From positions 1 to 37,169 of the IMG/VR virus record IMGVR_UViG_3300036767_001243: a stretch of DNA of 37,169 nt; one strand, written 5' to 3'. Shown here in pieces: positions 863-26,078 of this stretch. The translations under genes were made by a program, and so were the position numbers. Source of the DNA: a virus. The notes below the pieces were generated by a model. It was not told where the DNA came from, ran no database searches, and saw only the letters and a program-made list of their open reading frames with translations. Every line of letters starts with the position of its first letter. The first letter of the stretch is position 1.

Positions 863-1173
863 ATTTCCGAGAAGAAGACATCAAACGGAATTATGAGTTG
901 GTATTTGGAACACTCAAAGAATATCGGGTTCAAATCAAAGAGCAAACAGCCCGCGTTCGTGATCTGTGTGCAGAAATTGATCGTCTTGACGATGTGGGGC
1001 AAAGTAACCATCGGCATATAGATACACTTACAGAAGCCACCAAAGAGCTAGACCGGCTCAAAGAAAGCTACCAACGTCACCTTAAATATTTTCGCTGCTG
1101 GCAAAAGCGCCTTGCTCTGTTTCAGCAGTTTAAATCCGATTATGCCACGGCAGGATTAGGAGGTGAATCATGA
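859..1173 (+). CDS. small coiled-coil early protein
   Basis: A 104-residue, highly charged and almost entirely helical protein with heptad-like spacing over most of its length, suggesting a coiled coil. It overlaps the preceding gene (ATGA) and the transposase gene start by 4 bases, so translation is coupled through the block. Small proteins in this place in Mu-like phages have no settled function. No catalytic motif is visible. It may assist transposition or host takeover, but that is only positional inference. Confidence 0.65.
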   Translation: MNFREEDIKRNYELVFGTLKEYRVQIKEQTARVRDLCAEIDRLDDVGQSNHRHIDTLTEATKELDRLKESYQRHLKYFRCWQKRLALFQQFKSDYATAGLGGES

Positions 1174-3365
1174 TAAAAGAATGGTTCACGGCACAAGAAC
1201 TGGCTGAATTGCGTTTAGAAGGAATGCCGAAAACGCAACAGGGATGTGATCACAAAATAAAACGTGATAACTGGCATGGACGTGACCGATCTGGTCGTGG
1301 CGGTGGTAAGGAATACCACATCTCCAATTTGCCGGACAAAGCGCAGATTGAATTGCTGGACAAGATCATTGGAACGGATGCGATTGCAGATAGCGTTCTG
1401 TGTGACCGTCATGATGACAGCAGATGTGCGGTCACGACAGAAGACCGCCGGAATGCGCGACTTATTATTGTAGCGCTGTTTAAGCGTTTCCGTAAATCGG
1501 TCGGGCTGGGCGTTCTTGCGGCAGAACAACCCTTCTTGAAATTTTACCAAAGCGAAGGGATGAAGAGTGGATCAAAGTTAGTGCCGGACTGGGTTTACGG
1601 CATCTATCCGGATTTTTCGGTTCAGAGTTTACGAAATTGGCGCGCATGCGCGAAGAAAAATGATGGCCTTAAAGATTTAACCGATAAATACGGAAATCGT
1701 AAAGGCACAGGCGTTCTTGACCGGGCGGAAAACGGCGAAGTTGCAACGTATATACACGCGCTGATTACGCACAACGGGCATTTAAAAGCCGGGCATGTGC
1801 GTGATATGTGCCGGGCTAAATGGGGCAATACGCTACGCGTAAAAAATAAGAACGGCGATGAAGAAGAAAAGCCGCTGCCCAAAATACGTACATTTGAGCG
1901 CTTTATCTATGCGTTCAAGCAGGAAAACAAAGATCTGATGCTGAAGCTGACAGATCCTGATGGTTACAAAAATAAAATCATGTTGGCCACCGGTCGTGCC
2001 GATGCTCATATCGAGCGTTTGAACCAAGAATGGGAGATTGACGCATCGCCGGCGGATGTGCTGTGCACCGACGGTCGTTATAATCTATACGCTATCATCG
2101 ATATATTCAGCCGGCGCAGCATGTTCTTGGTGACCAAGACCCCACGCACAGAAGCGGCATTGTCACTGATCCGCAAGGCTATCATGGAATGGGGCGTGCC
2201 GGAGACGATCAAGACCGATAATGGTTCGGATTTTATATCGCACAGATTTCAGACCGCTTTGCTGGCTCTTGGCATAGAACAAGACATTTGTTCGCCATTT
2301 TCACCTGAGAAAAAGCCATATGTCGAACGGGTTTTCGGCACATTGCACCGTGATCTAGGGCCGATATTGCCCGGCTTTATCGGCCATGATGTTGCCGATC
2401 GTAAAAAGATCGAGGCGAAGAAGGCGTTTAGCGCCCGGCTTGGCGAGAAAGAGCAAGATGCCTTTGCCGTCGGACTATCCTCCGAAGATTTACAGCGCCA
2501 TATTGATACATGGGCCAGCGGCAAATATGAACATCGCGTTCACAGCACAATTGGCGTCAGTCCATTCCAGAAAGCGAATAGCTGGACCGGCTCTATCAAG
2601 ACCATCAGCAGCGAACGCGCGATTGACATTCTTCTCGCACCGATTGCATCCGGGAAAGGCTGGCGCAAGGTAACCAAAGAAGGCATCCGCGTTGAGCGTG
2701 GTCGCTTCATGGCGCCGGAATTGGCGATGTATGTCAGTAAAGAAGTTTTCGTTCGGCATGATCCGGCGGACATGGGCCGTATATATGTTTTCGACAACGA
2801 TGATAATTTCATCTGCGAAGCCAAAAACGTCGAACGACTTGGCATTGATCGTCTGGCCTTGACCGAACAATCCAAAGCCGCACAGAAAGAACACATCCGA
2901 GAGCTTACAAAAGACATCAAAAAGGCCGCGCGTTCGATCAAGCCTGAAGATTTTATTGATGCTTACCTCCAAACAGAAGCGGAGAAAGCCGAGAATATTA
3001 TACCGCTGCCGCGTGAGCGGACAGAACACACGAGCAAGGGCTTGAGCGAAGCTGAACGCGCTGTCTTCCGCCCTCAGTTACCCGAAAAAACAGAATTAAG
3101 CGAGAAGCAACAAAAGGCACATAAGAAACTCGTCGAAGAAATGAGTCAATCGCAGCCGACAAAATTGCTGAAGACGGAAGACAGACAAACACGCTTCCGC
3201 CGCGCACTGAATCTTGAAAGCCGTCTGGATGAAGGACTTCGAATTACCGAAGAGGACAACAAATGGCTTTCTCGATACCAGACGACTCCGGAATATCGGT
3301 CGCAGAAATCGATGCTGGAGGATTTTGGAACATCATGGTTAGAAAAAGGAGACTTAAATGCATAG
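1170..3365 (+). CDS. A: Mu-type transposase A (DDE recombinase)
   Basis: A 731-residue transposase, close in size to MuA (663). Residues 1-60 form the Mu-type DNA-binding domain: a 'WFTAQELAEL' start, then 'GRDRSGRGGGKEYHISNLP'. The retroviral-integrase-like core carries the DDE triad at D291 ('WEIDAS'), D350 ('IKTDNGSDF') and E386 ('KPYVERVFG'), with exactly 35 residues between the second Asp and the Glu. A beta-barrel region and a charged, helical C-terminus follow; in MuA the C-terminus contacts MuB and ClpX. It binds the end repeats and performs strand transfer for integration and replicative transposition. The gene overlaps its neighbours on both sides, and the MuB-like ATPase follows directly. 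Confidence 0.97.
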   Translation: MIKEWFTAQELAELRLEGMPKTQQGCDHKIKRDNWHGRDRSGRGGGKEYHISNLPDKAQIELLDKIIGTDAIADSVLCDRHDDSRCAVTTEDRRNARLIIVALFKRFRKSVGLGVLAAEQPFLKFYQSEGMKSGSKLVPDWVYGIYPDFSVQSLRNWRACAKKNDGLKDLTDKYGNRKGTGVLDRAENGEVATYIHALITHNGHLKAGHVRDMCRAKWGNTLRVKNKNGDEEEKPLPKIRTFERFIYAFKQENKDLMLKLTDPDGYKNKIMLATGRADAHIERLNQEWEIDASPADVLCTDGRYNLYAIIDIFSRRSMFLVTKTPRTEAALSLIRKAIMEWGVPETIKTDNGSDFISHRFQTALLALGIEQDICSPFSPEKKPYVERVFGTLHRDLGPILPGFIGHDVADRKKIEAKKAFSARLGEKEQDAFAVGLSSEDLQRHIDTWASGKYEHRVHSTIGVSPFQKANSWTGSIKTISSERAIDILLAPIASGKGWRKVTKEGIRVERGRFMAPELAMYVSKEVFVRHDPADMGRIYVFDNDDNFICEAKNVERLGIDRLALTEQSKAAQKEHIRELTKDIKKAARSIKPEDFIDAYLQTEAEKAENIIPLPRERTEHTSKGLSEAERAVFRPQLPEKTELSEKQQKAHKKLVEEMSQSQPTKLLKTEDRQTRFRRALNLESRLDEGLRITEEDNKWLSRYQTTPEYRSQKSMLEDFGTSWLEKGDLNA

Positions 3366-4080
3366 CCAAACCATCGCACCGTTGAAGAACGTCATGTTAT
3401 TCAACGAAACCGTAGATCGGGTAATGAACCGCCCCGCCCATTTGCCCGGAATGGCAACCTTCCATGGGTTTTCCGGGTTCGGTAAAACTTTCTCGGCGAT
3501 TTATGCCGCCAATAAATATCAGGCGCGCTATATCGAAGCCGGACATAGTTGGTCACAGAGCAAGTTTTGTGACGCCATTCTGAATGAACTGGGAATTCCG
3601 GCAAAAGGCACGATCGCAAACAAGGTCGATAAGATTGTCGAAGGTCTGATCGCGGAAGAAAAGCCGCTGATCATCGACGAGGCTGATTTCATCGTCAGCA
3701 AACGTTTTGTTGAACTGGTTCGTGAAATTCATGACAAAAGCAGCACGCCGATCATTCTGATCGGAGAGGAGTTACTGCCGAACAAAATCAGTGAATGGGA
3801 ACGATTCCACAATCGCGTGCTCGACTGGGTTCCGGCCGTGCCTGCCGACATGGATGATATTAACCATCTGGCCAGAATGTACTGCCCTGAGCTGCATCTG
3901 ACGGCTGACGTCCTAAGTCAACTCAACAAAGTATGCAACGGCCGCGTGCGGCGTATCTGTGTCAATCTGGAACGCATCCGCGAATATGCGGTGACGTCCG
4001 GTGTTGATGAAGTCAGAACCAACGATCTGCAGCAACTACCACTGTTCACCGGTCAACCACCGCAGCGGAGGGCAGCATAA
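3358..4080 (+). CDS. B: MuB-like target-capture AAA+ ATPase
   Basis: A 240-residue ATPase. The Walker A motif is GFSGFGKT at residues 37-44 and the Walker B motif is LIIDEAD at 104-110. The C-terminal part (about 165-225) is helical and rich in basic residues ('NGRVRRICVNLERIREYA'). In Mu, MuB coats target DNA, stimulates the transposase and provides target immunity. It lacks the long N-terminal DNA-binding extension of Mu B (312 residues), like the shorter B/TniB-type ATPases in other transposable phages. Its start lies 8 bases inside the transposase gene, so the pair is translationally coupled. Confidence 0.93.
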   Translation: MHSQTIAPLKNVMLFNETVDRVMNRPAHLPGMATFHGFSGFGKTFSAIYAANKYQARYIEAGHSWSQSKFCDAILNELGIPAKGTIANKVDKIVEGLIAEEKPLIIDEADFIVSKRFVELVREIHDKSSTPIILIGEELLPNKISEWERFHNRVLDWVPAVPADMDDINHLARMYCPELHLTADVLSQLNKVCNGRVRRICVNLERIREYAVTSGVDEVRTNDLQQLPLFTGQPPQRRAA

Positions 4081-4703
4081 TGGCACGACGTAAAGTAACA
4101 GAGATGATTCCTCACAAAGCACAGGCTGGCGTTGGCTATGAAGCGATATGGTCGCATATACAGATGTATAAAGATCAACCCTTCACAGTGCCGGATATTG
4201 TAGCAAAGGCGAACGCGGATCGCACAAGTGTGCATGACTATATAAAACGCCTGGTTCGAGCTGGTTATGTTGAGAAGTTGCCAGTTAAACAGAAAAACGC
4301 TTGGTGTTATAAAGCCGTCAAGCGGCCTTTAACAGCACCGCGATTGCGTCGGGATGGCAGTCAAGTCACGCAAGGCTCTGGCCGTGATCATATGTGGCGT
4401 ACGATGAAGATGCTGCGAACTTTCACGGCGAAAGACCTCGCTATTTCGGCCTCCACGAAAGATGTTCGCATCAAAGAAAACGCTGCGGTTGATTATATCA
4501 AATTTTTGTATCGAGCAGGTTATTTGAAGATTGCCCAGCCACACCGGAAAGGCTCTGCAAGAGTTGGGCATAAAGCGTCGTATATGTTTCTACCGGGTAA
4601 AAATACTGGACCAAAAGCGCCGGTGATCCAGCGGATCAAACGGGTTTACGATCCTAATCTGGAGCAGGTCGTCTGGCCGGAAGATGGAGGCGACAATGAA
4701 TGA
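4080..4703 (+). CDS. tandem winged-helix early protein
   Basis: A 207-residue protein with two similar halves. Residues 18-75 ('AIWSHIQMYKDQPFTVPDIV...VHDYIKRLVRAGYVEKL') and 100-160 ('HMWRTMKMLRTFTAKDLAISA...AVDYIKFLYRAGYLKIA') both read as a winged helix-turn-helix with the same '(D)YIK.L.RAGY' recognition end. This internal duplication is visible by eye. It begins at the last base of the MuB stop codon. A DNA-binding regulatory role is likely, but the target is unknown. Confidence 0.8.
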   Translation: MARRKVTEMIPHKAQAGVGYEAIWSHIQMYKDQPFTVPDIVAKANADRTSVHDYIKRLVRAGYVEKLPVKQKNAWCYKAVKRPLTAPRLRRDGSQVTQGSGRDHMWRTMKMLRTFTAKDLAISASTKDVRIKENAAVDYIKFLYRAGYLKIAQPHRKGSARVGHKASYMFLPGKNTGPKAPVIQRIKRVYDPNLEQVVWPEDGGDNE

Positions 4704-5019
4704 CTGGATTTTTGAGCTGGGTAAAGCCTGCAATGAAACATCACAGCGCACTGTTGCGGCGCGGATTGGATACAGCCCGACCACAATTAGCCTTGTTTTA
4801 AAGGGTAATTACACAGGCGACATAAAAGCTGTCGAGAATGCCGTGCGGCGCAAGCTCATGCGCAGCAGTGTGTGCTGTCCTGTGCTGGGCGATATCAGTG
4901 CAACGGAATGTTCTACCCATCAGAAGAAACCGTTTTCAGCCAGTAGCTCTGTCAGGGTTCGGCTATTCAAAGCATGCAAACAGTGCCCCTTTAACACCAG
5001 AAGAAAGGATGCGTTATGA
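4696..5019 (+). CDS. small XRE-like HTH protein with Cys-rich tail
   Basis: I place the start at 4696, not at the upstream in-frame ATG (4684), because a GGAGG lies at 4686-4690 at good spacing. The product is 107 residues. The first 50 read as a helix-turn-helix ('TVAARIGYSPTTISLVLKGN' followed by a helix). The C-terminal half contains six cysteines in CC, C and CxxC groups ('SVCCP', 'TECSTH', 'CKQCPF') that could bind zinc. Related small HTH-plus-Cys proteins occur in the early operons of Mu-like phages; their function is unknown. Confidence 0.75.
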   Translation: MNDWIFELGKACNETSQRTVAARIGYSPTTISLVLKGNYTGDIKAVENAVRRKLMRSSVCCPVLGDISATECSTHQKKPFSASSSVRVRLFKACKQCPFNTRRKDAL

Positions 5020-5267
5020 TCGCTGAAGACATCGAACATCTGAAAATCCAATTGATACAGATCTCGCAGAACCAGAATGGGCAGTTATTGCTGAGCAAGG
5101 AGACGACAAACTGCCTGTTGCTGGCTCTGCAAGATTATCAAGACCGCGTTGACGCGATGGAGCAGACAATGTGTCCGCATCCTGAATTGTCGGCCGTCGG
5201 TGAGACAAAACAATCCTGCAGCGGCAGCAATGTCGTTGTGTTCCCACGCAAAAAAATCGAGAGATAA
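5016..5267 (+). CDS. small hypothetical early protein
   Basis: An 83-residue protein that begins inside the stop region of the previous gene (TTATGA), with a ribosome site AAGAAAGGA upstream. The N-terminal 50 residues look helical and the C-terminus ends in a basic patch ('VVVFPRKKIER'). I recognise no family. Its place in the tightly packed early operon and normal codon use support it as a real gene. Confidence 0.6.
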   Translation: MIAEDIEHLKIQLIQISQNQNGQLLLSKETTNCLLLALQDYQDRVDAMEQTMCPHPELSAVGETKQSCSGSNVVVFPRKKIER

Positions 5268-5277
5268 GGAGATATCC

Positions 5278-5457
5278 ATGAAAGCACAATTAACGATCAC
5301 TGATACTGATGATGGCGGTGTTGAAGTCAATGTTGAGGCGGTCGAAGGAACGTTCTCAAAAGGCGATGAAATTCCAACGGCGGCAGAAGGCTTAATGTCA
5401 GAAGCACTGCAGCACATCATGACCACTATAAAAATGCGTAAAGGAGAAAAAGCATGA
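5278..5457 (+). CDS. small hypothetical early protein
   Basis: A 59-residue acidic protein. The start at 5278 is chosen because a good ribosome site (AAGGAGA) ends 5 bases upstream; a longer reading from 5149 would run through the previous gene. The first half has alternating beta-like residues ('QLTITDTDDGGVEVNVEAVEG') and the second half is a helix. The end overlaps the DUF3164 gene by 4 bases. No function can be assigned. Confidence 0.65.
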   Translation: MKAQLTITDTDDGGVEVNVEAVEGTFSKGDEIPTAAEGLMSEALQHIMTTIKMRKGEKA

Positions 5458-6056
5458 CACAAGACTACATGACAAATGCCGAGGGGCATCTCGTCCCGAT
5501 CGATAAGGTAAAGCCAGAAGACCGTCTGGAAGACGATCTTGTATGTGAGCTTTATGCAGAAGCACTCTCCCTTAATGCCGAATTGGCGGCCTTTAAGCAG
5601 AAATCGTTCGAAAATGTAAACGGCTTTGTGACGCTGCTTGACGAAAAGTATGGCGTTACCAAAGGCGGAAAAAAGGGCAACCTGACCCTGACATCCTACG
5701 ATGGTCTAACCCGTATTCAAATTTCTGTCGCCGACAATCTGCAATTCGGTCCGCAGTTGCAGGTCGCCAAAAGCCTCATTGATGAATGCATCAACGAGTG
5801 GTCGGACGGCGCGAACAACAACATTCGCGCCCTTGTTGATCACGCTTTCCGCGTGGATAAATCCGGCCGCATCAATGTGCAGAGCATTCTGGGTTTGCGG
5901 CGTCTGAATATTAGCGATGAAAAATGGCTGAAAGCGATGGACGCAATCACAGAAAGCATCCGCGTCACGTCGAGCAAACAATATGTTCGCATCTACAGAC
6001 GGCCGTCGCCGGAAGCTGACTGGGAAAATGTCAATCTGGACATAGCAAGAGTTTAA
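5454..6056 (+). CDS. DUF3164 family Mu-like early protein
   Basis: A 200-residue protein matching the DUF3164 family found in the early region of Mu-like phages. Typical features are the N-terminal 'MTNAEGHLVPIDKVKPED' block and the middle 'FVTLLDEKYGVTKGGKKGNLTLTS' block. The C-terminal block contains 'ALVDHAFRVDKSGRIN' and 'LGLRRL'. The molecular function is not established. It is the last gene before the structured RNA at 6062-6275 and is translationally coupled to the gene before it. Confidence 0.9.
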   Translation: MTQDYMTNAEGHLVPIDKVKPEDRLEDDLVCELYAEALSLNAELAAFKQKSFENVNGFVTLLDEKYGVTKGGKKGNLTLTSYDGLTRIQISVADNLQFGPQLQVAKSLIDECINEWSDGANNNIRALVDHAFRVDKSGRINVQSILGLRRLNISDEKWLKAMDAITESIRVTSSKQYVRIYRRPSPEADWENVNLDIARV

Positions 6057-6061
6057 CCATA

Positions 6062-6275
6062 TGGGGCTGCGGCGTGGAAGGACACGCTGGCAAGCTAGGT
6101 GAGAATGGGGACTACCCTAAAAGCACCGTTCAAGAATACTTCGGTAACACAGCCATTGAGTGTGTCATACGGGTAGCAGGAGAGTGGAAGGAAAGCCACA
6201 GAATGTCCGTTTAGATAACAGCCTCTGGACAGGTGTAGCCCTAGCATCAGCAGGTATCAAGCCCTGCCAGCCCCA
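6062..6275 (+). ncRNA. candidate structured RNA in the gemA 5' leader
   Basis: This 241-base gap (6057-6297) folds by eye into a compact structure. Long-range helices are TGGGGCTG 6062-6069 with CAGCCCCA 6268-6275, GCTAGG 6094-6099 with CCTAGC 6240-6245, and CTACCC 6112-6117 with GGGTAG 6171-6176. Local hairpins are 6072-6076/6083-6087, a C(UUCG)G tetraloop at 6138-6147, 6147-6151/6161-6165, 6184-6187/6196-6199, 6204-6208/6227-6231 and 6250-6254/6263-6267. All pairings are properly nested except that the UUCG stem and the next hairpin abut. The outer helix closes just before the ribosome site of gemA. Options are a cis-regulatory leader, a phage ncRNA or a non-autonomous HEARO/omega-RNA-like element. 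I cannot assign an Rfam family. Confidence 0.55.
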
Positions 6276-6297
6276 CCACTTACTTGAGAGGATTAAG

Positions 6298-6966
6298 ATG
6301 AACACAGTAGCAAAATCAATTCCATCACGGAATGCCTTGATTGCCAAAATTCATATTGGCAAGAAACAGCTTGCCCTGAATGAATGCTCTTACCGTGCCC
6401 TTCTTTTCGGGGCAACCGGCAAGGAAAGTTGCGCGGATATGGACATCGGTGAGCTTGAAAATGTGCTGTCCGCCATGAAAAATGTAGGCTTCAAACCAAA
6501 GCCGAAAACAAAAGGAAAAACGCCGGCCGCGACAGATGATCAGGCGCGGAAGATCCGGGCATTGTGGATTATGCTCTATCATCTGGGGCAGATCGCGGAT
6601 TCAAGCGAAGAGGCTCTGGCCGGTTTCGTGAAGCGGCAAACACAAGTGGAATCGCTAAAATGGCTGACACCGATACAGGCAGATCAGGTAATAAAGGCGT
6701 TGCGCGGATGGTTGAGCCGTGTCGGGTATTATCATCCGACAGCTATGGATCATCAGGTCTTTGGCACGGATGGATTGGCTGAAAATATCAGCCTTATGCA
6801 ATTACAGGCCAGTCTGCTGGATATTGATGATATCTATGATTGGTTGAATAAGAACGGATTCCCATGTGATGCGCTGAAATTTATGGACAGAGACGATATG
6901 TACTGCGCCATCAAAATTCTAGGGGAACGCATCCGTCAAAAGAAAAAGGCTGATCATGTACGATGA
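6298..6966 (+). CDS. gemA: GemA-like regulator (Mu gp16, DUF1018)
   Basis: A 222-residue DUF1018 protein. Diagnostic parts are the N-terminal 'LIAKIHIGKKQLALNECSYRALL' segment and the C-terminal half with 'ALWIMLYHLGQI', 'FVKRQT' and 'LRGWLSRVG'. In Mu, GemA modulates host gene expression and DNA topology early in infection. The start at 6298 (MNTVAKS) has GAGAGG upstream. A longer in-frame reading from 6160 would run through the structured RNA and is rejected. The end overlaps mor by 11 bases. Confidence 0.9.
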   Translation: MNTVAKSIPSRNALIAKIHIGKKQLALNECSYRALLFGATGKESCADMDIGELENVLSAMKNVGFKPKPKTKGKTPAATDDQARKIRALWIMLYHLGQIADSSEEALAGFVKRQTQVESLKWLTPIQADQVIKALRGWLSRVGYYHPTAMDHQVFGTDGLAENISLMQLQASLLDIDDIYDWLNKNGFPCDALKFMDRDDMYCAIKILGERIRQKKKADHVR

Positions 6967-7336
6967 ATACGGCCATGACGACCTATCATTCAAACCGACA
7001 ATCGCGTCCATAGAAAAGATTGTCGGTGAGAATGCTGCCGCCCAGATTTCAATGGATTTCGGCGGCACGCGGATATATATTCCGCACAATCCGGGCGCAC
7101 ATTCTCCGCTGGCAGTTTGCATAGGGCTGGACGCAGCGCAAAAAATAGCGCAGACTTACGGAGGGATGGATTTCACTGTCCCTGTCAATCTTGGCAAAGA
7201 TGCCGAGATCAAAAGATTAAACGCAGAAGGCTATTCTGCCAGTGCCATTGCCAGAAAGGTCCGGTGTTCGCTCCGGAAAGTGTATCTGGTGAGAGAGCAA
7301 GTCGAAAAAGAAAACCAACTCGACCTTCCAATGTAG
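6956..7336 (+). CDS. mor: Mor-family activator of late/middle transcription
   Basis: A 126-residue protein of the Mor/C family. The N-terminal dimerisation part (residues 1-75) ends in a beta strand with 'GTRIYIPHNPG'. The C-terminal helix-turn-helix is 'NAEGYSASAIARKVRCSLRKVYLVRE'. Mor of Mu binds a dyad upstream of a weak -10 and recruits RNA polymerase. It is the last gene of the early operon, as in Mu, and no separate C gene is seen. The repeated dyads at 7345 and 17141 are the obvious candidate sites. Confidence 0.92.
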   Translation: MYDEYGHDDLSFKPTIASIEKIVGENAAAQISMDFGGTRIYIPHNPGAHSPLAVCIGLDAAQKIAQTYGGMDFTVPVNLGKDAEIKRLNAEGYSASAIARKVRCSLRKVYLVREQVEKENQLDLPM

Positions 7337-18796: not shown

Positions 18797-18871
18797 AGCG
18801 GAGTAGAGCAGTGGCAGCTCGTTAGGTTCATACCCTAAAGGTCGGGGGTTCAAGTCCCCCCTCCGCAACCA
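18797..18871 (+). tRNA. tRNA-Met(CAT), initiator type
   Basis: A 75-base tRNA with encoded CCA. The acceptor stem is GCGGAG/CTCCGC with an unpaired A1:A72. D stem GAGC/GCTC includes an A11:T24 pair. The anticodon stem is TTAGG/CCTAA with loop TTCATAC, anticodon CAT. The variable loop is AGGTC. The T stem is GGGGG/CCCCC with loop TTCAAGT. A missing 1:72 pair and A11:U24 are known hallmarks of bacterial initiator tRNA. Of the three G:C pairs expected in the anticodon stem only two are present (29:41 is A:T). It starts 4 bases after the decoration gene stop and ends 43 bases before the capsid gene. Found within a prophage head operon, it is very unusual. Confidence 0.93.
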
Positions 18872-24631: not shown

Positions 24632-26078
24632 ATTAGTATTAGAAGCGCTTGATCGTCTGACACAACCTGTCAGACAGATGGCAGCTCGTATTCGCCAGTT
24701 TGCTTCGCAGATGAATTCTGCGTTTCGTTCTGTTGGTCAGTCCATGCGTAATGTCGGGAAGTCGATGAGTGATATCGGCGGACAAATGACCGCGAAAGTA
24801 TCAACAGCCATATTCGGTTTGGGAACTGCATCTGTATTTACTTCTGCCAAGTTTGAGGATTTGAGAGCTGCGATGGAGACAGCCGCCGGATCTGCTGAAG
24901 ATGGTAATAGAGAGTTTGATCGCATGTTGAGCTTTGCCGAAACTACACCGTATCAGCTCGAAGAAGTTATGACGGCCTACATCAAATTGAAGAATCTCGG
25001 CCTTGATCCGACGAACGAGTCTTTGACATCCTTTGGGAATACGGCATCGGCAATGAATAAAAGCTTGGATCAGATGATTGAAGCTGTTGCTGATGCTACG
25101 ACAGGAGAGTTCGAGCGTTTGAAAGAGTTTGGTATCAAAGCTCGTGTTGAAGGTGAAAAAGTCGGTTTTACGTTTCAGGGGCAGACCACTGTTGTGAGAA
25201 ATACAGCAGAAGAGATTGAGAAATATCTATTGAGCATTGGGAACGATAAATTCGGTAGCGCAATGGAAAAACGTATGCGTGGCATGAATGGAATTATTTC
25301 TAATTTCAAAGATGCTGTCGCAGGTAGTCTGGCGGGCTTCGGTGATGATATTATTAGAGAGTTGGAACTTAAGCAGTTCTTTAAAGACCTTGCACAGGGA
25401 GTGCGTGATCTCTTGACGTTATTCAGATCATTACCCCAACCCATACAGGGTTTCATCATAAAAGGAGGTCTGGTATTGGCCCTGCTAGGCCCCTTGATCA
25501 TGATGGTCGGTCAACTATTTATGGGGTTTGGCATGCTTACCATCGGGATTTCCAATACCGCAACGGGGGTTGTTTGGCTGTCCGGTATACTAAAAGCGTT
25601 GACTGTGTTTTTATGGGGCGCTACGGCCGCGACGATTAAAATGGGAGCTGCATTCATGGCCACTCCTATTGGTTGGATTACAGCGGCGATTGCTGCACTA
25701 GCTGTGGCTGGATTCCTTATTATCAAAAACTGGGACAAGATCAGAAAGTTCTGGACAAATTTGTGGGGCGGGATTGTTCAGCGTGTCCGGACTGCGGCCG
25801 AGTATATCATGCCGGTTATTGAAGCGATATCAAAGGGGATGGATTTCATCACAGACAACGCTGTCACCCGTGGAATCGGTCGAGCCGCTGATTTCGTGAC
25901 CGGCAATGATTCTGATGAAACCTCTCCAGTGCAGGGTACAAAAGGTCAGGTTGATACGGGCGGCGAGTTGCGCATTGTGATTGACGAAAACCGTCGAGCC
26001 TCTGTTCAAGCCACAATGAATGACAAGAATACAAATACAGTCATCGATCAAGGCGTGTTGATGGGGGCTGCGTTATGA
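24612..26078 (+). CDS. tail tape measure protein (Mu gp42-like)
   Basis: A 488-residue tape measure. Residues 1-60 are helical ('LKVKLVLEALDRLTQPVRQMAARIRQF'). The TP901-type core lies at about 80-240 ('FEDLRAAMETAAGSAEDGN', 'TTPYQLEEVMTAYIKLKNLG'). Three or four hydrophobic segments (about 280-375, such as 'GGLVLALLGPLIMMVGQLFMG') may insert in the host membrane at DNA ejection. By the usual rule of about 1.5 angstrom per residue it predicts a short tail. It starts within the frameshift extension of the chaperone gene. Confidence 0.92.
   Translation: MSDLKVKLVLEALDRLTQPVRQMAARIRQFASQMNSAFRSVGQSMRNVGKSMSDIGGQMTAKVSTAIFGLGTASVFTSAKFEDLRAAMETAAGSAEDGNREFDRMLSFAETTPYQLEEVMTAYIKLKNLGLDPTNESLTSFGNTASAMNKSLDQMIEAVADATTGEFERLKEFGIKARVEGEKVGFTFQGQTTVVRNTAEEIEKYLLSIGNDKFGSAMEKRMRGMNGIISNFKDAVAGSLAGFGDDIIRELELKQFFKDLAQGVRDLLTLFRSLPQPIQGFIIKGGLVLALLGPLIMMVGQLFMGFGMLTIGISNTATGVVWLSGILKALTVFLWGATAATIKMGAAFMATPIGWITAAIAALAVAGFLIIKNWDKIRKFWTNLWGGIVQRVRTAAEYIMPVIEAISKGMDFITDNAVTRGIGRAADFVTGNDSDETSPVQGTKGQVDTGGELRIVIDENRRASVQATMNDKNTNTVIDQGVLMGAAL

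Follow-up and report, generated by a model that had tools for sequence, protein, structure and literature searches.

A covarying phage RNA family with a tRNA-like core layout and a wholesale-replaced insert

The DNA analysed here (the window) comprises the 37,169 nt of the IMG/VR virus record IMGVR_UViG_3300036767_001243. Within its Mu-like early region, a gap of 241 nt separates a gene for a DUF3164 protein from gemA, and this gap holds a structured RNA that starts 6 nt past the DUF3164 stop codon and ends ~20 nt ahead of the gemA start codon (Table 1). The gap segment folds with −77.7 kcal/mol (z −2.6), a value equalled by one in 200 shuffles, which bears out the pairing beyond chance proposed in an earlier, sequence-only reading. 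Its 8-bp outer helix, TGGGGCTG/CAGCCCCA (6062–6069/6268–6275), is present, and the inner 7 bp covary strongly in homologues; the bounds of 6062–6275 that it claimed are better drawn at 6063–6274, plus an ACCA at 6275–6278. Both copies of GTGGAAGGA that it pointed out exist, the first being a conserved core hairpin and the second lying in the insert, where it forms a small hairpin (6184–6199) that is no family feature. The sequence of the proposed UUCG tetraloop, TACTTCGGTA (cUUCGg), is likewise there, but the fold of lowest energy does not pair it into a tetraloop. Two pairs of complementary 6-mers, GCTAGG/CCTAGC (6094–6099/6240–6245) and CTACCC/GGGTAG (6112–6117/6171–6176), both fall inside the insert, which has no homologues.

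Table 1. Features of the RNA element and its flanking genes in the window.
Feature	Position	Strand	Evidence
Upstream gene, DUF3164 protein	5454..6056	+	PF11363, E 3.2e-78; stop at 6056
Whole RNA element (core and insert)	6063..6274	+	Match to family model R1 (cmsearch) over its full length 1-102, 68.5 bits, E 1.5e-15; not an independent score, as R1 was trained on 55 rows that include the window
Closing (acceptor-like) stem, 5′ strand GGGGCTG	6063..6069	+	Pairs with 6268-6274; 7/7 pairs double-changed in the family
2-nt linker CG (analogue of tRNA positions 8-9)	6070..6071	+	C invariant, G in 93/101
D-arm-like hairpin GCGTG-GAAGGA-CACGC	6072..6087	+	4/5 pairs covary; hexaloop GAAGGA/GATGGA nearly invariant
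Variable insert, 162 nt in the window	6088..6249	+	117 inserts in 110 clusters, unrelated even in close relatives; A6249 conserved
T-arm-like hairpin GCAGG-TATCAAGC-CCTGC, flush with the closing stem	6250..6267	+	5/5 pairs covary; 70 viral contigs share the exact 18-mer
Closing stem, 3′ strand CAGCCCC	6268..6274	+	Family conservation and covariation
ACCA directly after the stem (tRNA-like 3′ end)	6275..6278	+	NCCA in 8/117 members
Downstream gene, gemA	6298..6966	+	PF06252, E 2.8e-36; ATG at 6298

A direct BLAST search with the segment gave chance matches only, in phages, plasmids and relatives' loci alike, and exact 16- to 22-mers of the window insert found nothing real. The clue to homologues was the 3′ end of the element, which resembles that of a tRNA (T-arm, stem, ACCA). 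When viral contigs were searched for GGTATCAAGCC-N11-ACCA, a pattern biased towards ACCA, several phages unrelated to one another emerged. Their stems are formed by differing sequences, and the hairpin GCGTG-GAAGGA-CACGC comes after the 5′ strand in all of them. Scanning with the D-like hairpin returned at least 120 contigs and with the exact T-like hairpin 70, while a geometric finder yielded 118 distinct matches; one mis-pairing was dropped, leaving ~117 members. A CCA end had been considered as a defining feature and was rejected, as the first scan required ACCA and an unbiased scan found it in a minority only.

The members lie in phage contigs, cultured phages, and a few prophage or plasmid loci. 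Among the cultured phages, AP1 (Acidovorax/Paracidovorax) and QDWS595 (Alcaligenes) were found by the scans and the geometric finder; Pan3 (Pseudanabaena), DMCA (Caulobacter), and phiKX1 and phiKX2 (Komagataeibacter) were confirmed by the family model R1, as were loci on Roseomonas and Sinorhizobium plasmids. The DMCA copy lies at ~25554–25686 of record PQ480021. Membership is doubtful for DSS3P8 and Rb1, with R1 scores of 22 and 15 bits, respectively.

The common core runs, in order, through a closing stem of at least 7 bp, a 2-nt linker (consensus C-G), a 5-bp hairpin with the loop GAAGGA (consensus GA(A/T)GGA), the insert, a conserved A, and a 5-bp hairpin with the loop UAUCAAGC (consensus (T/A)ATCAAGC) set flush with the stem. 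The window has each of these elements, with all 17 core pairs formed. The closing stem is mostly 7–9 bp long, reaching at least 15 bp in 28 of the 117 members. Loop conservation was partly set by the search patterns, each scan fixing one loop, and the other loop proved conserved too. 

The cleanest test of the family takes contigs chosen by the T-hairpin 18-mer alone: in 53 of 69, a 7/7 closing stem, the 2-nt linker and a 5-bp hairpin lie upstream, compared with 2.25 in a control that borrows the 3′ strand from a different contig. No match arose in 17 Mb of shuffled sequence. In the 55-row alignment, 16 of the 17 core pairs are changed on both sides, and the covariation score is 0.62, compared with 0.14 for shuffled and at most 0.107 for slid alignments. 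The percentage of paired positions is high by construction, members having been chosen by pairing; free of that bias are independent matches of R1 to untrained sequences (L183, L155, L147, and cultured phages outside the alignment), all at E<1e-11. G-U outnumbers A-C mismatches by 32:9 (p 0.0004), and therefore selection acts on the RNA of the + strand. None of the 4227 families of Rfam 15 matches the segment (E≤10), so that the description of the element as a compact structured RNA of unknown family, and as a phage ncRNA, stands, with homologues in many phages and strong covariation among them. The existence of an RNA family is well supported; its function we infer.

The insert behaves quite differently from this core, ranging from 36 to ~320 nt in length. 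In three pairs of loci (L332/L344, L283/L363 and L375/L383) the matching flanks are 83–94% identical and the frame is the same, yet the inserts resemble each other no better than unrelated inserts do; the shortest of these flank matches is that of L375/L383, at 41 nt upstream. A helix common to the insert ends is absent, pairings of at least 5 bp occurring in 42 cases and in 46 of the control, and GCTAGG/CCTAGC was accordingly rejected as a conserved P2-like family helix. Antisense matches of the inserts to their own contigs show no excess. At L341, a complete tRNA-Pro lies inside a member's insert (6872–6944), and the inserts of Pan3 (L392 ~3063–3128, degenerate) and L367 are tRNA-like.

These properties bear on a possible, though unlikely, alternative, in which the family is a new class of structured RNA whose conserved two-loop core is itself active, as a ribozyme or in binding a protein or ligand, with no mimicry of tRNA and with the insert as a neutral loop. 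The loops are nearly invariant over ~100 members, more rigid than a mere fold needs, and the wide range of insert lengths with no common fourth helix would suit a neutral loop. Inserts are, however, replaced wholesale rather than drifting, and the tRNA-like spacing of the core and the same-strand placement of members in tRNA clusters, described below, also speak against it.

The closest relative identified, L134, belongs to a Rickettsiales MAG and is a prophage-like stretch; its DUF3164 protein is 77% identical. A 60-aa ORF (5609–5788), and no RNA, lies there between the DUF3164 gene and gemA, and nucleotide homology with the window stops at 6063, the first base of the closing stem. The element is thus a discrete cassette, present in this phage and missing from its nearest relative, as the earlier reading had it. 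Among the loci of 100 relatives, the family model gave one weak match (L097, 23.6 bits), ~3.9 kb downstream of the DUF3164 gene. Copies were found in three of 299 sampled Pseudomonadota genomes, and the exact T-hairpin in none of 385 genomes from the class to which the genome of L134 belongs; this is therefore essentially a phage or prophage RNA.

Such a patchy, discrete cassette of ~200 structured nt recalls the HEARO/IscB omega-RNA (RF02033), and the sequence-only reading had suggested a non-autonomous insertion of that kind. That the element is a HEARO or IS200/605-type insertion is nonetheless extremely improbable: RF02033 has no match in the segment at E≤10, nor in a second search in which the control genomes were also silent, and the core differs, with covariation in three helices that fit no Rfam family. 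No IscB-type HNH ORF lies by the RNA in the window, the nine early-region genes scanned (1170–7333) being Mu-like or unknown, and IscB and TnpB are absent from the listed families of neighbour proteins. The earlier interpretation is thus partly supported overall, being right in the observation of a structured RNA and wrong in this proposed identity.

The position of the element immediately upstream of gemA would fit a cis-regulatory leader of that gene, a riboswitch or attenuator. A cis leader is very unlikely because the orientation of the next gene varies, 70 lying on the same strand and 42 on the opposite (mechanical ORF calls), and because no neighbour protein that would point to a function recurs across the family loci. 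Members precede unrelated or opposite-strand genes (in Pan3 and DMCA, the annotation places the downstream genes on the other strand), and no confident copy was found at the loci of related DUF3164 or GemA genes. The role of gemA leader in general, which had also been considered, is not upheld.

The layout of the core appears to copy the tRNA elbow, the insert standing where a tRNA has its anticodon arm, a resemblance read from the sequence rather than a demonstrated fold. In common with tRNA (RF00005) are the 7-bp acceptor-like stem, the 2-nt linker, GG in the loop of the D-like hairpin, the T-like hairpin flush with the stem, UC in its loop, sometimes CCA, and the occurrence of members in tRNA clusters; the GG and UC are compatible in sequence with an elbow contact. 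The family differs from tRNA in lacking an anticodon arm, in the 8-nt T loop UAUCAAGC with its extra A, in the hexaloop GAAGGA, and in having C at position 8, an often extended stem and mostly no CCA. At standard thresholds, neither ARAGORN nor Rfam calls the element a tRNA, and a tRNA is the only Rfam match in the whole window: a good tRNA-Met(CAT) gene at 18797–18871 (+), beyond the Mu-like early region. At 80%, ARAGORN called a tRNA-Leu interrupted by a 139-nt intron; this was rejected, the threshold having been lowered and the anticodon stem being no family feature.

A subset of members keeps the company of tRNAs. Ten of 121 have a tRNA or tmRNA no more than 30 nt away, in every case on the same strand, where random placement gives 3.1. 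L235 has the order tRNA, member, tRNA, member, tRNA, the tRNAs being those for Leu, Lys and Arg and the spacings 8–22 nt, and at L400 a member sits between tRNA-Met and tRNA-Trp. Most members are not beside a detectable tRNA, and the nearest in the window is that at 18797.

This spacing of members like tRNAs within clusters, and the close fit between the DUF3164 stop codon and the gemA start codon in the window, would be expected of a punctuation element, whose tRNA-like structure makes RNase P or another tRNA nuclease cut a polycistronic transcript, the insert having no role. We regard this explanation as improbable, given that orientation to the downstream gene is inconstant, that closing stems of at least 15 bp would hide the RNase P site, and that the swapped inserts are left unexplained.

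Several other structured features were observed at the family loci. A second recurring hairpin, of 5 bp around TGGAAGC, occurs near members, with five on the same strand and none on the opposite (L328 ~3197, L348 ~11385, L372 ~7060, L383, and L394 ~347, the L394 copy being identified by eye), and is perhaps a sister family of tRNA-like RNAs in the same arrays. Long noncoding zones at L372 (6300–7320), L348 (11300–11800) and L332 (1100–1900) consist of multiple distinct structured cassettes, and inverted repeats such as CCATCA...TGATGG bound many of these. QDWS595 encodes a permuted tmRNA (RF04321, 111 bits; L329 603–856), and in Xanthomonas phage Rb1 (L331 3390–3700) a tmRNA-like 3′ end precedes the 5′ end, as judged by eye, with no feature annotated in either place. 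An abiF RNA (RF03085, 46.6 bits) lies at L368 2631–2668 (−), in a phage contig that also bears a member.

With tmRNA (RF00023, and RF04321 in permuted form), the family shares tRNA-like ends and another RNA domain replacing the anticodon arm. A reduced tmRNA with a tag ORF in the insert might be read from the acceptor-like stem, the ACCA and the short open frames of the window insert, and ARAGORN makes such a call at lowered thresholds only; these thresholds give 2815 calls, spurious in bulk, and neither ARAGORN nor Rfam calls a tmRNA in the window at standard ones. The family has no G3-U70 (the window has G6065-C6272), no UUCGAC motif, no conserved tag ORF and no conserved insert, and with inserts unrelated there is no conserved tag. 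tmRNA, first suggested by a stop codon in a hairpin loop together with the ACCA, was rejected on these grounds, and its reduced form is exceedingly unlikely.

The YrlA bacterial Y RNAs are also noncoding, carry a tRNA-like module and are known from phages too, and to that extent the family is alike. It differs in its hypervariable insert and in the lack of a CGAA (Ro60-type) motif at 6063–6274 of the window. It also seems to have no common Ro60 neighbour: in the Pfam families listed for 121 neighbour proteins Ro60 does not occur, and RtcB occurs once. In engineered tRNA scaffolds, a foreign RNA is carried in the place of the anticodon arm of a tRNA. The phage RNA likewise has foreign RNA in that place, but is natural and has a frame that is not a canonical tRNA; the engineered design is in use for recombinant RNA (PMC3753655).

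We consider the chances about even that the element is a stand-alone phage noncoding RNA, a tRNA-like scaffold with an exchangeable payload. Its 5′ and 3′ ends pair into the acceptor-like stem, the D-like and T-like hairpins keep tRNA spacing, and the long unrelated insert stands in for the anticodon arm. The GG of the GAAGGA loop may dock on the UC of the UAUCAAGC loop in the style of the tRNA elbow, by which the head would fold whatever the insert. The enzymes that process tRNAs, RNase P and its partners, would probably release the RNA from the transcript of an operon or tRNA cluster, and it would be stable. In the weakest step, the insert would evolve fast and work in trans against some host target, as a decoy or effector, and the swapping of inserts between close relatives is proposed to follow from such a host conflict. 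Counting against the scaffold are the 8-nt T loop, the C at position 8 and the missing anticodon arm, the rarity of NCCA and the frequency of long stems that are unlike tRNA, the lack of a shared neighbour protein or an antisense signal, and the distance of most members from tRNAs.

A literature search found no description of this RNA family. It is apparently undescribed. Of the known RNAs compared, tRNA, tmRNA, YrlA and HEARO each have at least one defining feature that was looked for here and is missing from it. Fremin and colleagues reportedly produced, in about 2023, a large prediction set of structured phage RNAs, and bulk lists of this kind might contain the family as an unnamed cluster; in view of its likeness to tRNA, it may later be classed as a derived tRNA-like RNA.

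The family thus lies outside Rfam, covaries very strongly, and occurs in phages whose hosts are alpha- and betaproteobacteria and a cyanobacterium. Its design is unusual, a nearly invariant frame surrounding an insert that is replaced wholesale, and such variability is a sign of host conflict or modular cargo. With members in the cultured phages DMCA, phiKX1/2, QDWS595, AP1 and Pan3, it is testable at once. We tentatively suggest, at rather less than even probability, that phages use the conserved tRNA-like frame as a cassette for RNA payloads, decoys or effectors, which related phages would exchange in the manner of variable domains and often express together with their tRNAs. The family also bears on the purpose of phage tRNA clusters.
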